Shown: positions 1 through 13,849 of the stretch, one piece after another
Layout: each line of letters begins with the position of its first letter
How positions within the stretch are numbered: the stretch's first letter is position 1
Source of the DNA: Thermoflexales bacterium
GTDB taxonomy: Bacteria; Chloroflexota; Anaerolineae; J036; Brachytrichaceae
Reading direction: 5' to 3'
Length of the DNA stretch: 35,542 bases
NCBI GenBank assembly: GCA_019694215.1
Contig: JAIBCK010000030.1
Location: forward strand, 1-35,542
The notes under the pieces: model-generated
The model's input: the letters and a program-made list of their open reading frames with translations, nothing else
Told to the model about the DNA's origin: nothing
Database searches by the model: none
Made by a program: the position numbers and the translations under genes

Positions 1-373
1 TAAAGTCGTCGCCCATCATGACGTAGAAGGCGGGATTGGCTTTTGCAACGTTTTGCAGGTTCAGCCGGTAGAGATCCGCGCTGAACATCTTGCCGGCCCG
101 CTCGGGGTGTGAGTCCCCTTGCACGCCAAAGGAGAAGCCCGCCGCTGTCCCGGAGCTCACCGGGGTCGCGGTGCGCGGTTGCGTTGTCGCAGTCGCTGGC
201 TGTTGCGTGGGCGGTGCCGCTGTCAGAGTGGGCGGCACCTGCGTGGCGGGCTGGGCGGATGCCTGCACCGGTGGTGCGCTGGTCGCTGCGGGGCTGGCCG
301 ACGCGCACGCCGTCATCAGCGCGGCAAGCGCGCAGGCGGCGAATGTGCCTCGAATCTTGCGTGTGGACAACAT
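1..373 (-). CDS. Metallophosphoesterase lipoprotein, N-terminal part (cut by window edge)
   Basis: The gene starts at the ATG at 373 and runs off the left edge, so only about 124 residues are visible. The N-terminus is a lipoprotein-type signal (MLSTRKIRG, hydrophobic stretch, then LMTAC with a candidate lipid-bearing Cys). A low-complexity Ala/Thr/Pro linker of about 60 residues follows, typical of surface-exposed lipoproteins. The folded part begins with FGVQGDSHPE and continues to FYVMMGDDF. A D-x-H followed at a distance by GD is the start of the calcineurin-like metallophosphoesterase signature, which binds two metals and hydrolyses phosphate esters. Substrate is unknown. It lies 30 nt downstream of the interrupted lipoprotein gene on the same strand with no promoter of its own that I can see, so the two are probably co-transcribed. 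The family call rests on two motifs only, since the remaining metal ligands lie outside the window. Confidence 0.68.
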   Translation of the reverse strand, partial: MLSTRKIRGTFAACALAALMTACASASPAATSAPPVQASAQPATQVPPTLTAAPPTQQPATATTQPRTATPVSSGTAAGFSFGVQGDSHPERAGKMFSADLYRLNLQNVAKANPAFYVMMGDDF

Positions 374-403
374 GGTTGCGTGTGTGAGCGGTGCGCTAGC
401 CGT

Positions 404-1849
404 CTACTTGAACAGGAAGTCGGTGTTCGGCACGGCCGGCATCGAGATCTTGTCGGAGTAGAGATACGCCGATGTGTTGGGGCAGGGATAGTTGCCCAGG
501 TCGCGGAGGGCGGCCAGCTGCGTCTTCTGCTCGGCCGTCAGCGTCTTGCCGACCTGCGCGAAGGCGCTCGCGTAGTAGTAGGAGATTTCGCCGTCCAGCG
601 CGCCATACTCGCGCGAGAGCGCGATCACCGACGCCTCGTTGATGTTGCCGCCGCTGAGCGCCTTGCGCAGCTCGGTGGCAATGGCGCGGCGCTTCTCCAC
701 AATGCCGTTGATGGCCGGGCGTTGGGCGTCGACGATGCTGGTGATGGTCGGCTTCTGCGCGCTCGTCAGCAGCGCCAGGAAGTTCTCGCCCTTGCTGCTG
801 GTGATGGTCTCGTCGATGGTGTAGCCGGCGTTTCCGATGGCCGGCGCATCCTTGATGTAGAACCCGCCGAAGTAGTCGCCCTGTCGCTCCGGGCAGAAAT
901 AGGTGTCCGCCTCGATGTTGCCGGCGTACCAGCCAAACATCTCACTGGCGTAGGTCATCACCAGCACGTGTTCGTCGTGGCTGAGCGAGCGCTTGTCGAC
1001 CTGATCGGGGAGCGCCGCCCACGATGCGAAGCCGCCCTTGACCATGGCGTCGAGCGCGCTGCGCTGGGCGGGGGTGAGCGAGCCGATCACCTCGCTGAAG
1101 AGCTTCGCCCGCTGCAGGCTGATGCGCGCATCCAGCTCGTACAGATCGGCCGAATACTGCATGACCGCGGTCTTGCTCAGGCCCGTTGTGCCGGCCGGCA
1201 GGTCGCCGGAAAGTGTGCGCCGGAAGGCGACCATCAGCGGATAGCGACGATAGGCGTAGTCGTTGACGAGGCTGGCCTGTGTCTTGGCCAGCGCGATGTA
1301 TTTGGCCTTCTGGGCGTCATTGAGAATCTTCAGGACGCCGTTGGCGGCGTTGGTGACGAAGTCGGTGCTGTGACCCTGGCCGGACTGCGTGGTATCGCGC
1401 AGATACTGAAACCCGAAGAAGTCGGCGACCTTGCCCGGCGGCAGGAAGGAATCCGAGCAGGTGTTGCCACTCAGGAAGCCGAGCGCGTCGAAGGCGAGTG
1501 TGTTGAGTTGGGCCTGGTCGGAGATGGCTTAATCGATGCTGTATCCACCCTGACCGCTGCCCTGACCGCGGGCGGGCCCGGGCGACTGCGCCGGGGGACG
1601 CTGTGCGGCCGGCGTCGCGGGTGGGTTGGCCGCTGGCGGCTGCGGGTTGCCCGGGCGCGGGGCCGGCGTGTCGCGGACGACCGGGGCGGGGGTTGCGGGA
1701 ACCGCCACGGGCGCAGCGGCGGTGGGCGCTGGCAGCGGGGTGCTGGTGGGTGCGGCCGGGGCCAGCGCCGTGCAGCCGATGACGCTGATGCTCACAAGCG
1801 CGACGGAAAACCGAAAGAAGCACGGGGGGAGTTGGGGCTTGATATTCAT
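404..1849 (-). pseudogene. LTxxQ-repeat lipoprotein gene interrupted by one in-frame TAA
   Basis: Reading from the ATG at 1849, the frame gives a lipoprotein signal (VIGC, Cys 26), a Pro/Ala-rich linker, then GGYSID and a TAA stop at 1529-1531 (codon 107). The same frame continues without another stop for 374 codons to TAG at 404, starting AISDQAQLNTL. The continuation looks like a genuine helical secreted domain with repeated LTxxQ-like elements (LTPAQ, LTSAQ, LTAEQ and a related LNDAQ), reminiscent of Spy/CpxP-type periplasmic proteins. The signal peptide and linker sit only in front of the stop and the folded domain only behind it, so the halves make sense only together. One change (CAA Gln to TAA) would explain it. 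Possible readings are a recent nonsense mutation, readthrough, or a sequencing/assembly error. An internal restart (for example at 1234) would yield a protein without an export signal. Function is not known. Confidence 0.7.
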
Positions 1850-1949
1850 GCGGGTTGCCTTGTCATCATTTGGCAACGCACGGCAAAAAGTGGCGTGAAG
1901 AGGTTGCAAAAACGTTGAAAAATGACGTCCCCGCGGGCCCGTTCCCGTG

Positions 1950-1982: not shown

Positions 1983-1993
1983 AACCACGTTTA

Positions 1994-2083
1994 CGGGGAG
2001 GCAGGGATTCGAACCCTGGGTCCACTTATTAGGCGAACAACCGCTTAGCAGGCGGCTCCGATCGTCCACTCCGGCACCTCCCC
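1994..2083 (-). tRNA. tRNA-Ser (GCT anticodon)
   Basis: The complement folds as a 90-nt class II tRNA. The acceptor GGGGAGG pairs with CCTCCCC, the anticodon loop CTGCTAA carries GCT (reads AGC/AGU), a long variable arm follows, and the T-loop is GGTTCGAATCC. No CCA is encoded. It begins 15 nt after the upstream tRNA-Ser(TGA) and is probably processed from the same transcript. Confidence 0.95.
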
Positions 2084-2098
2084 AGTCTGGAGATCGAG

Positions 2099-2186
2099 CG
2101 GAAAGGGTGAGATTCGAACTCACGGTGAGGACGAGCCCCACGACGGTTTTCAAGACCGTTGCCTTAAACCACTCGGCCACCTTTCC
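2099..2186 (-). tRNA. tRNA-Ser (TGA anticodon)
   Basis: The complement folds as an 88-nt class II tRNA. The acceptor GGAAAGG pairs with CCTTTCC, the anticodon loop CTTGAAA carries TGA (reads UCA), a long variable arm and the T-loop GTTCGAATC follow. No CCA is encoded. It is first in a two-gene tRNA-Ser unit with its own extended -10 promoter upstream. Confidence 0.95.
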
Positions 2187-3899: not shown

Positions 3900-5137
3900 C
3901 AGGCCGCTTTCGCGCTGGGGGCGGGCGGGCGCAACCGCTGCACGACCATGACGATGAGCGGGATGCTCATCACGGTGAAGCTGACCGCCGAGACGCCAAA
4001 GTAGCTGAAGCTCGCCAGGATGATCCCGCTGAAGATGCCGCCCAGCGCCGATGACAGATTCACGACCAGGTCATTGCTGCCCTGCGCACGGGCCTTCTCC
4101 TCGCGCGAGAGCGAGCCGGTCAGCAGCGCCGAGCCACTGACGTAGCAGATGCTCCACCCCAGACCGACCAGGAAGAGCGCGGCTTCGAGTGGGATCAAAT
4201 CGTTGGACAACGGACCGATCACGCAGCCGGCCATGAGCACGATTGCGCCCAGGGTGATCAGCAGACGCTTGTTCATGCGGTCGGCGAGCGTCCCCCACAG
4301 CGGCGAGAAAGCATACATGCCGAGCACGTGCAGCGAGATCACCGCGCCGACGGCATCCAGGGTGTGCCCATGCTGGGTCATGTGCAGGCTGACGATGGAC
4401 ATCATCATCGTCATGGGCGCCTGCGCAAACGCCATCGTCACGATGCCCAGCAGCACGTCGCGGCGGGAGAGCAGGGCGCGCAGCGAGATCGACTTGTTGG
4501 CCGTCGCAGTCGGCTGCGAGGCCCCAACGCGGGCGGCAATGCCCTGCCAGTCGATGGAAAGCAGGATCAGGATGCCGATGGCCGTGAGCGCAAAGAGCGT
4601 CGAGGTGGCGAAGTAGGGTCCGGCCAACCGGTTGAGGCCGAGCGAGGCGATGAGGTTGCTGGCCGGCCCGGCCAATTGTGGCCCCAGCACGCCGCCAATG
4701 GTGCCGCCCCACACGACGATGCTGATGGCCCGTGCGCGCTGCTGCGCCGGATACAGGTCCGCGGCTGCGAAGCGGGCCTGCTCCAGTGTCCCACGACCAA
4801 TCCCCATCACGATCAGGCTGGCGAAGAAGCCCGGAGCGTTGCCAAACGCCACGGCCGTGGCGGCCAGAAAGGCGCCGAGCGTGCCAAAGGCCGAGCCGAT
4901 CAGCAGCCCGTTGCGGCGCCCGATGGTGAGCATCAGCCGCGACAGCGAATAGGCTCCGATCGCGTTGCCGATCAGCACAACGGCATTGGGCCATCCGCCC
5001 GCGCGCCCATCCCCGGTCAGCTGCGTCGCGACGATGGCATTGACTGTGGATGCGGCAAGGAACGCGGTCGAGGCGACGCTCTGGGTGAGGAAGAGCCCGG
5101 CGGTGCCCTTGAGGACGGCGGTGCGATCACTTTTCAT
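3899..5137 (-). CDS. MFS family transporter
   Basis: The product is a 412-aa integral membrane protein with about 12 predicted hydrophobic segments in two halves, the major facilitator layout. After the first helices comes the loop LSRLMLTIGRRNGLLIG, resembling the MFS motif A region between TM2 and TM3, and the second half has the equivalent WGTLADRMNKRLLI. An acidic/basic central loop follows TM6, around WQGIAARVG. The substrate cannot be inferred; the general look fits the drug/sugar efflux branch. The ATG at 5137 is chosen because upstream in-frame codons run into the cytochrome c gene and are Arg/Ser-rich, unlike protein. It lies 67 nt downstream of the cytochrome c gene on the same strand and may be read through from that operon. 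Confidence 0.85.
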   Translation of the reverse strand: MKSDRTAVLKGTAGLFLTQSVASTAFLAASTVNAIVATQLTGDGRAGGWPNAVVLIGNAIGAYSLSRLMLTIGRRNGLLIGSAFGTLGAFLAATAVAFGNAPGFFASLIVMGIGRGTLEQARFAAADLYPAQQRARAISIVVWGGTIGGVLGPQLAGPASNLIASLGLNRLAGPYFATSTLFALTAIGILILLSIDWQGIAARVGASQPTATANKSISLRALLSRRDVLLGIVTMAFAQAPMTMMMSIVSLHMTQHGHTLDAVGAVISLHVLGMYAFSPLWGTLADRMNKRLLITLGAIVLMAGCVIGPLSNDLIPLEAALFLVGLGWSICYVSGSALLTGSLSREEKARAQGSNDLVVNLSSALGGIFSGIILASFSYFGVSAVSFTVMSIPLIVMVVQRLRPPAPSAKAA

Positions 5138-5204
5138 GCTGGAAAAAGACAGCAGTCGCAGTTTGATGACTGCGACTGCTTGCGTATGTGATTGAAAGCT
5201 CGCG

Positions 5205-6110
5205 CTACTTGAGCGTGCTGAGGTAGTCCAGCAGAGCGTCGAGGTCGGCGGCCTGAAGCGTCTGCCCAAACGTGGACGGCATGACGTTGGCCAGACAGGC
5301 ACCCTGAGGGCATTCCGCGACGACAAAGACGTTCGGATTGACGATCGCTTCCTTGATGTATTCAGCGCCGGTCTTGGCGGTGCCTTTGTAGGCGGCATCC
5401 TTGATGCGCGCATCGGCGGTCGTGGCCAGCTTGTTCAGCGACGGCCCAATCGCGCCGGTGGCGACGCCGCGAATGGCGTGGCAGGCCTGGCAGCCGGCTG
5501 CGCCGAGAAAGACCTGCTTCCCCTTCTCCTGATTGGCCGTGAGCGCGACCGCGGCGGCCGCCCCGCCAGCAGCGCCAGGCTCCGGCATCGTCGCGACGGG
5601 CGCGACCTGGCCGGGCCCCCAGTTCAGGACAAAGGCGGCGACGTTCTTGACCTGGTCTTCGCGGAGCGGGCCGCCGAAGGCGAGGGCGAAGGGCGGGTGC
5701 GGGGCCTCCCACACGGCGCTCGACTTGACCGGCATGCCCGAGGCGACGACGGCTTCGACATAGCCGGCGAGGCTGCTCGTCCAACCAATCTTCTTCAACC
5801 GCTCGCTCGGGCCGAGCGTCTTCTTGGCAGCATCCCACTTGCCGAGGAAGCCGTCATAGGACAGGGCCGGGCCGAGGCCATCGGCGCCTTCGCCCTTGGC
5901 CCCGTGGCAGCGCGCGCACTGCTCGTAGTAGACCTTGGCGCCGGCTTCGATGTTGCGGCCCGTGAATTCCTGGCCGCGCTCCGCCATCGCCCCATTCAGG
6001 TCGACGGCACCGGTCAGCAAACACATGCTGATGAACGCCACAACGGCAATCGTGCCGCTGATCAGGCGCAGGGTCCAGCTGGGCTGGAAGGTGAGGATTC
6101 GTTTGATCAT
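5205..6110 (-). CDS. Membrane-anchored dihaem cytochrome c of the bc complex
   Basis: The 301-aa protein begins with an uncleaved-looking membrane anchor (residues about 15-36) and carries two c-type haem sites outside the membrane: CARCH at 65-69 and CQACH at 207-211. Plausible axial Met ligands are Met126 (SGMPVKS) and Met277 (NVMPSTF). The two cytochrome domains are joined by a Gly/Ala/Pro-rich linker near 170-190. An additional cysteine pair (CPQGAC, 267-272) sits just before the second Met ligand and could form a disulfide. It is the last of three tightly spaced genes after the Rieske protein and cytochrome b (20 nt gap). It most likely takes the place of cytochrome c1, passing electrons from the Rieske centre to a downstream oxidase or soluble carrier. 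Confidence 0.9.
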   Translation of the reverse strand: MIKRILTFQPSWTLRLISGTIAVVAFISMCLLTGAVDLNGAMAERGQEFTGRNIEAGAKVYYEQCARCHGAKGEGADGLGPALSYDGFLGKWDAAKKTLGPSERLKKIGWTSSLAGYVEAVVASGMPVKSSAVWEAPHPPFALAFGGPLREDQVKNVAAFVLNWGPGQVAPVATMPEPGAAGGAAAAVALTANQEKGKQVFLGAAGCQACHAIRGVATGAIGPSLNKLATTADARIKDAAYKGTAKTGAEYIKEAIVNPNVFVVAECPQGACLANVMPSTFGQTLQAADLDALLDYLSTLK

Positions 6111-11954: not shown

Positions 11955-11964
11955 ATGATACGAT
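11955..11964. promoter_or_regulatory. Overlapping divergent -10 boxes (acyltransferase / GH127)
   Basis: Plus strand TACGAT (11959-11964) lies 7 nt before the ATG at 11972 of the GH127 gene. Minus strand TATCAT (complement of 11955-11960) lies 18 nt before the acyltransferase ATG at 11936. The two boxes overlap by two bases, as at the uppP/SDR junction. Confidence 0.4.
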
Positions 11965-11971
11965 GATTCGC

Positions 11972-13849
11972 ATGCAGGCCCTCCGCCCCGTCCCCCACAC
12001 GCGCGTGACGCTCACAGACGCCTTCTGGGCACCGCGCATCGAGGTCAACCGCACCGCCACGCTGCCGCATGTGCGGCAGCAGCTCGAGGCGACCGGCCGC
12101 CTGGCGGCACTCGACCTGGCCTGGCGGATCGGCATGCCCAACAAGCCGCATCACTTCTGGGATTCGGACATCGCCAAGTGGCTGGAGGCGGCCAGCCTGT
12201 CGCTCGCGGCACATCCCGACCCGGCGCTCGAAGCCGATCTGGATATGATTATCGAACGTTATGCGAACTTGCAGCATCCGAGCGGCTACCTCAATAGCTA
12301 CTTCCTTGGCATCGACCCCAGCCGGCGCTGGGCCAACCTGCGCGACGCGCACGAGCTGTACTGCGTCGGGCACCTGATCGAAGCTGCGGTTGCCCATCAC
12401 GCGGCGACGGGAAAGCGCACCTTTCTGGAGGTCATGTGCCGCGCCGCCGACCACGTCTGCGCCGAGTTTGGTTGGGGGCGCGATCAGCGTCGCGGCTACC
12501 CCGGCCACGAGGAGATCGAGCTGGCGTTGGTAAAGCTCGCGGCGGCGACCGGCGAGAGGCGCTACTTTGAGCAGGCGCGGTATTTCATCGACGCCCGCGG
12601 GCAGCAGCCGCACTACTACGAAATCGAGGCGCGCCTGCGCGGCGATGATCCACGCGCCTACTGGGCCAAGACCTATGAATACGTCCAGGCCCATGTGCCG
12701 CTGCGCGAGCAGACCACCGTGGTCGGGCATGCCGTCCGCGCGATGTATCTCTACGCCGGCGCGACCGACGTGGCCGCCGCCACCGGCGACACCGGGCTGC
12801 TCGCGGTCCTGGAAGGGCTGTGGAAGCAGCTCGTCGACACGCGCCTGTTTGTGACGGGTGGCATCGGCACGTCGGGGGACAACGAGGGTTTCACGCGCGA
12901 CTACGATCTCCCGGACGAAGATGCGTATGCCGAAACCTGCGCGGCGATTGGTCTCGTCTTCTGGGCACAACGCATGCTTGCGACGACCGGGCAGGGCCAG
13001 TATGCCGACATGCTCGAGCGCGCGCTCTACAACGGCGTGTTGAGCGGCGTTGGTCTGGATGGCACGCGCTTTTTCTACGAGAACCCGCTCGCCTCCGGCG
13101 GCCAGCACGCCCGCGAGGCCTGGTACAGCTGCGCGTGCTGTCCGCCCAACATCGCCCGCCTGCTCGCCGGCCTGCCCGGTCTGTTCCTTGGGAGCAGCGA
13201 TGACAGTGTGTGGATGCATCTGTATGCCCAGGGCCGCGCGAGCGTGCCGGTCGCCGCGGGCGTGCTGTCGCTTTCGACGCAGAGTTGCTACCCGTGGGAC
13301 GGTGCCGTGGGCGTGACGGTGGAAGCGGCGCCCGGCGCGCCGCTTGCGCTTCGCCTGCGCATCCCGGGCTGGTGCGTGCGTTGGCGGGTTCGCGTCAACG
13401 GTGCGCCCCTCGAAAGTGCCGTGCTTGAGAATGGCTATCTCGTCCTGCGGCGCGTGTGGCGGGCGGGCGACCGCATCGACCTGCAGTTGGGAATGCCGGT
13501 CCGCTTCACCTACCCCCATCCGCGCATCCGCGCGCTGGCCGGGCGGGTGGCGGTGGAGCGCGGTCCGCTGGTGTATTGCCTTGAAGGCGTCGATCAGCGC
13601 GAACGCGATCTCGAGTTGCTCGCGCTCGATACCTCGGCAGGGCCGGCGGCATTTAAGCCGCATCACGATCATCATCTGCTCGGTGGGGTGACGTTGCTGC
13701 GCGGGCCGGCCCGTCGACTCGGGGCGGCGGGCGGGCTGTATCGCTCGCGGCCGCTCTCAGGTGACGTGACCGACGCGACGCTCATCCCGTATGCGGTCTG
13801 GGCCAACCGGGCCAGGACCGAGATGCGGGTCTGGGGGCGCTCAACGTAA
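11972..13849 (+). CDS. Glycoside hydrolase family 127 (beta-L-arabinofuranosidase type, DUF1680)
   Basis: This is a retaining glycosidase of the HypBA1 type, which uses a zinc-bound cysteine nucleophile to remove beta-L-arabinofuranosyl units from plant or algal glycans. The catalytic set is present (numbering from an in-frame ATG at 11963): Glu308 in NEGF as acid/base; Glu324 and Cys326 in AETCAA and Cys392-Cys393 in CACCPPN as zinc ligands, Cys392 being the nucleophile. The spacing Glu308-Glu324 (16 residues) equals Glu322-Glu338 of HypBA1. The catalytic (alpha/alpha)6 part is followed by beta-sandwich sequence to about residue 628. No signal peptide, so it acts in the cytoplasm on imported oligosaccharides. 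I prefer the ATG at 11972 because the -10 box overlaps the ATG at 11963. No transporter or other glycosidase is adjacent. Confidence 0.92.
   Translation: MQALRPVPHTRVTLTDAFWAPRIEVNRTATLPHVRQQLEATGRLAALDLAWRIGMPNKPHHFWDSDIAKWLEAASLSLAAHPDPALEADLDMIIERYANLQHPSGYLNSYFLGIDPSRRWANLRDAHELYCVGHLIEAAVAHHAATGKRTFLEVMCRAADHVCAEFGWGRDQRRGYPGHEEIELALVKLAAATGERRYFEQARYFIDARGQQPHYYEIEARLRGDDPRAYWAKTYEYVQAHVPLREQTTVVGHAVRAMYLYAGATDVAAATGDTGLLAVLEGLWKQLVDTRLFVTGGIGTSGDNEGFTRDYDLPDEDAYAETCAAIGLVFWAQRMLATTGQGQYADMLERALYNGVLSGVGLDGTRFFYENPLASGGQHAREAWYSCACCPPNIARLLAGLPGLFLGSSDDSVWMHLYAQGRASVPVAAGVLSLSTQSCYPWDGAVGVTVEAAPGAPLALRLRIPGWCVRWRVRVNGAPLESAVLENGYLVLRRVWRAGDRIDLQLGMPVRFTYPHPRIRALAGRVAVERGPLVYCLEGVDQRERDLELLALDTSAGPAAFKPHHDHHLLGGVTLLRGPARRLGAAGGLYRSRPLSGDVTDATLIPYAVWANRARTEMRVWGRST

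Follow-up and report, generated by a model that had tools for sequence, protein, structure and literature searches.

A single in-frame TAA interrupts what appears to be one exported-lipoprotein gene with a tandem LTXXQ-like domain

We analysed the window, a whole contig of 35,542 bases, and found on its minus strand a reading frame that is interrupted by one TAA and is otherwise intact (Table 1). Comparison with relatives indicates that the 106-codon part upstream of this stop and the 374-codon part downstream of it constitute one ancestral frame and one gene. An earlier note had described a lipoprotein gene split by a single in-frame TAA with both halves otherwise intact, and this description held: 106 residues and a stop are followed by 374 residues and a terminal stop. 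Our best reading, to which we give a little better than an even chance, is a recent single-codon nonsense allele in one exported-lipoprotein gene.

Table 1. Features of the split frame and its surroundings in the window
Feature	Position	Strand	Description
Metallophosphoesterase (next gene downstream)	1..373	(-)	First part of a lipoprotein-type metallophosphoesterase gene, which the contig end truncates
Split frame, whole	1849-404	(-)	106 codons, TAA, 374 open codons and TAG (from translation)
3' part	404..1528	(-)	374 codons, then TAG; encodes a conserved, entirely helical domain built from two LTXXQ-like halves in tandem
Terminal TAG	406-404	(-)	End of the split frame
In-frame TAA	1529..1531	(-)	From sequence; sense codon in 84/84 counted relatives
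5' part	1532..1849	(-)	106 codons; predicted lipoprotein-type signal peptide and Pro/Ala/Thr-rich linker ending in GYSID; from translation
Antisense open frame	119-1918	(+)	599 codons
Two tRNA-Ser genes	1993-2186		Anticodons GCT and TGA
GH127-family gene	11963-13849		Ends in TAA

The 5' part begins MNIKPQ and continues with a hydrophobic stretch, the motif VIGC, which we take to be a lipobox-like site, and the Pro/Ala/Thr-rich linker. The N-terminal signal with its lipobox cysteine was judged by eye from the hydrophobic stretch and VIGC; a Pfam search with the 106 codons gave no match. The 3' part opens AISDQAQLNT, and its first ATG, GTG or TTG lies 98 codons in, from where 276 residues would be encoded. 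The first 98 codons after the TAA, which lack a start, have GC1/GC2/GC3 values of 0.58/0.42/0.85, a coding-type composition. The split goes beyond chance: the downstream stretch is homologous coding sequence, and its start-less portion is of coding type. An open frame of 599 codons also runs antisense to the split gene; its GC3 is lower than its GC1, and this composition suggests that it is the shadow of a high-GC coding strand.

A scan of genome contigs gave 70 loci encoding relatives, and more came from searches of the relatives and of the class. For the codon count, 13 rows were dropped (four matches shorter than 300 residues and nine with identical DNA); five of 83 loci (L006, L007, L053, L165 and L170) contributed nothing to the count, and some others contributed two rows each. 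The earlier note had put forward a comparison of the interrupted codon with sister genomes, and when this was run with relatives the aligned codon was a sense codon in all 84 distinct relatives counted and a stop in none, so that no in-frame stop was conserved among the orthologues. The codon was CAG in 48, CAA in 27, GAC in three, AAC in two, and GAT, CAT, TTT and ATG in one each. Glutamine was thus encoded in 75 of the 84, and all ten relatives above 60% identity had CAA or CAG. One other genome of the same genus was searched (G001, 67% complete) and did not contain the gene; for the window's species itself, no further genome was found for the comparison.

Upstream of the site, the frame was open for at least 21 codons in every counted relative (n = 84). 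The upstream parts of the relatives, apart from two L060 matches that lie at an edge and could not be followed upstream, comprise a signal or membrane anchor and a low-complexity linker in the same frame as the domain, and these linkers end in a YSI-Q-like motif, for example GYSIDQ or YNIEQ, as in the window gene. In the approximately 355 codons from the site onward, with the last codons excluded, none of the 84 had an internal stop. Because all 84 carry a sense codon at the site and read on upstream, the orthologues do not end there. This result contradicts the one arrangement that the earlier note had named as fatal to its claim, in which the downstream domain is always a separate gene.

The 374 residues aligned end to end with 31 relatives at 45–75% identity (75% to the closest homologue), and this alignment showed no second stop or frameshift, in agreement with what had been claimed before. 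The 31 relatives, which were hand-picked for spread, served for the alignment, the fold model and the count of conserved columns. Of the 84 columns with at least 93% conservation among the other rows, the window copy departed at two; the same test, on 83–92 columns each, gave 0–9 deviations for the 31 relatives. Two deviations fall inside this range, and there is thus no sign of accumulated decay. The absence of decay would fit a lesion of very recent date, an error, and continued production of the protein alike, and it is the only means by which the recency of a lesion is dated here.

Conservation, a Pfam match and a structural model all agree with the earlier description of the 374-codon part as a folded domain. 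The LTXXQ family (PF07813) includes Spy/CpxP-type periplasmic proteins. It matched residues 254–341 (E 7.7e-10, 39.8 bits versus a gathering cut-off of 24.3), and Pfam therefore sees only the second half of the domain. When profiles of the two halves were compared with hhalign, they matched with 98.8% probability (E 9.9e-17, 26% identity over 151 columns), indicating that the domain is a tandem internal duplication. The AlphaFold2 model of the 374 residues was confident and helical (mean pLDDT 90.5). A Foldseek search with this model returned nothing at E <= 0.001. The VIA fold rows had Z values of up to 5.9, which are weak and of the sort common for helical bundles, and no Spy/CpxP entry was among the VIA rows shown. 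No PDB sequence relative of the domain was found. Among the homologues, L070 and L016 did not match PF07813 and L021 fell just below the cut-off. Among the literature listed, nothing useful was found on LTXXQ in combination with lipoprotein, Patescibacteria, metallophosphoesterase, CotH or YHYH.

The gene is accessory: it occurred in seven of 298 genomes sampled from the class, one of the seven being the genome of the window. The closest homologues (67–75% identity; L008–L015 and L070) come from records whose titles name CPR-type bacteria, archaea or unclassified bacteria. Such titles, set beside only seven positive genomes among the 298 of the class, suggest horizontal spread or mislabelled bins. 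Two tRNA-Ser genes lie directly upstream of this patchily distributed gene, and the pair is a possible insertion site for acquired DNA.

The metallophosphoesterase that begins downstream is 73–82% identical over 45 residues to proteins of L070, L011 and L009, and the L070 counterpart (4713-5789) belongs to PF00149. A match (E <= 1e-5) to the first 49 domain residues of the phosphoesterase was found in 19 of the 75 relative loci searched, a set with many short and some overlapping loci, and in five of the ten loci with gene order listed. In L070 the gene for the LTXXQ-type protein is followed by one for a 191-aa protein with no Pfam match and then by two PF00149 phosphoesterase genes. The window (1-373) shares a gene neighbourhood with distant MAGs (L070 4141-6813, L009, L011 and L014). 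An anchored protein of LTXXQ type comes first, a small protein that Pfam does not match often comes next, and one or two metallophosphoesterases follow. From this neighbourhood we would guess that the LTXXQ lipoprotein is a surface-anchored scaffold or chaperone that works with the phosphoesterase.

TAA is a normal terminator in the source genome. We sampled 688 kb, about a fifth of the genome, as 40 stretches plus the window; most stretches were the opening 20 kb of contigs chosen by number or for their tRNA content, and the sample is non-random. In it, 470 coding-like ORFs ended in TGA (228), TAG (189) or TAA (53). The last Pfam domain of the GH127-family gene reaches residue 624 of 628, and its TAA is therefore a natural end. 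The RpoB domain lies in a single open frame of 1306 aa. None of 43 tRNA matches had the anticodon TTA that reads UAA, in an assembly that is 96% complete and whose missing part might hold one.

The same sample was scanned for other splits. All of the roughly 100 same-frame neighbour ORFs had a start within 46 codons of the stop. Of the 357 coding-like ORFs with 200 codons or more, 22 had their first start at least 50 codons past the upstream stop, and only the window gene showed an unmistakable coding pattern in the start-less part; one other (L150 + 2044; 0.79/0.51/0.75) was ambiguous. The scan detects only long ORFs with late starts, which limits its power, and within that reach the 688-kb sample held no other clear TAA split of the same kind. 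A first scan with a composition filter had missed the window gene, whose upstream part is Pro-rich, and the later scan was run without the filter. We rejected genome-wide reassignment of TAA, given the lack of a TTA-anticodon tRNA, the use of TAA as a normal stop, the open RpoB domain and the lack of other clear splits in the sample. A recoding RNA structure at the stop was rejected as well, since the RNA around the TAA folded no better than shuffles (z 0.72; 146 of 200 shuffles at least as stable).

We then weighed the explanations of the stop against one another. According to the nonsense-allele reading that we favour, one gene would encode a signal peptide with lipobox, then a flexible linker, then a helical domain of 374 residues with two LTXXQ-like repeats in tandem, and a single nonsense codon, arisen very recently, would interrupt it in the source genome. 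The interrupted gene would yield no more than a secreted stub of linker, about 106 residues long; the helical domain would not be produced, because no start codon follows the TAA for 98 codons. The TAA would then be a real base and no error, function would be lost, and the loss would presumably be tolerated because the gene is accessory. The main competitor, whose probability we place somewhat short of even, is an error of assembly or base calling, or a consensus base taken from a minor strain, with the gene intact in the organism. The assembly consists of 184 contigs, the codon lies 1.5 kb from the end of its contig, and the remainder of the gene appears fully maintained. PMC11017572 gives low coverage as a known source of false internal stops, which rise with low coverage and low read quality. 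Against an error, the limited-power scan found no other clear split among the 357 long ORFs in 688 kb, so that false stops are not abundant in the assembly. The scarcity of further splits, though it comes from an insensitive scan, leans mildly toward a real base.

The earlier note had offered three options, namely a lesion of very recent origin, an error in reads or assembly, and readthrough, and the set stands with the one-frame split behind it upheld (84/84 sense codons) and readthrough the least likely of the three. At least partial readthrough of the TAA would give the full-length lipoprotein. Both halves are intact and conserved, and readthrough of bacterial in-frame stops has been argued from dN/dS <1 in PMC7918605, where in-frame stops in bacterial genes are described as widespread, with dN/dS <1, and as tending to persist only at polymorphism scale. 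However, intact halves are equally expected after a recent mutation, no UAA-reading anticodon was seen, TAA serves as a normal stop, no relative has a stop at the site, and the RNA there is no more stable than its shuffles; we consider readthrough very improbable. A variant that we rate as hardly more than conjecture makes the TAA a switch, acting by low-level readthrough or in a phase-like way and maintained in some of the population, that would control how much of the tandem-LTXXQ lipoprotein is shown beside its phosphoesterase partner. To an arrangement as two distinct genes, the first for a short lipoprotein and the second for a domain that has a start of its own, we give practically no credence. 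The frame is formally two ORFs and the nearest start gives 276 residues, but that start lies 98 codons inside the conserved domain, its product would lack the N-terminal quarter and an export signal, and 84 of 84 counted relatives have one frame. We rejected this arrangement because there is no start in the first 98 domain codons and the relatives are fused.

Annotation should treat the locus as one interrupted gene rather than as two genes. The split amounts to one broken or misread codon with no evidence for an altered genetic code, and is of minor significance in itself. The LTXXQ-like family, patchy across very different MAGs and often beside phosphoesterases, is more interesting than the stop. 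Like members of PF07813, the window protein is helical and predicted to be exported, and its second half scores above the Pfam cut-off. It differs from that family in having two tandem repeats, a 374-residue domain and a predicted lipid anchor; some of its close homologues score under the Pfam cut-off, and there is no solved-structure relative by sequence. With systems of stop-codon reassignment or suppression it shares an in-frame stop within a conserved gene, whereas here a single gene is concerned, no matching tRNA was found and TAA is also the normal terminator. The closest likeness is to nonsense-interrupted bacterial genes, which are pseudogenes with a single internal stop (PMC7918605, PMC11017572). 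As with these, one internal stop in the window gene breaks an otherwise intact, conserved frame and is seen in a single genome, and nothing sets the gene apart from them. In all likelihood the TAA is an ordinary, isolated nonsense codon, whether a genuine base or an artefact, and calls for no new reading of the genetic code.
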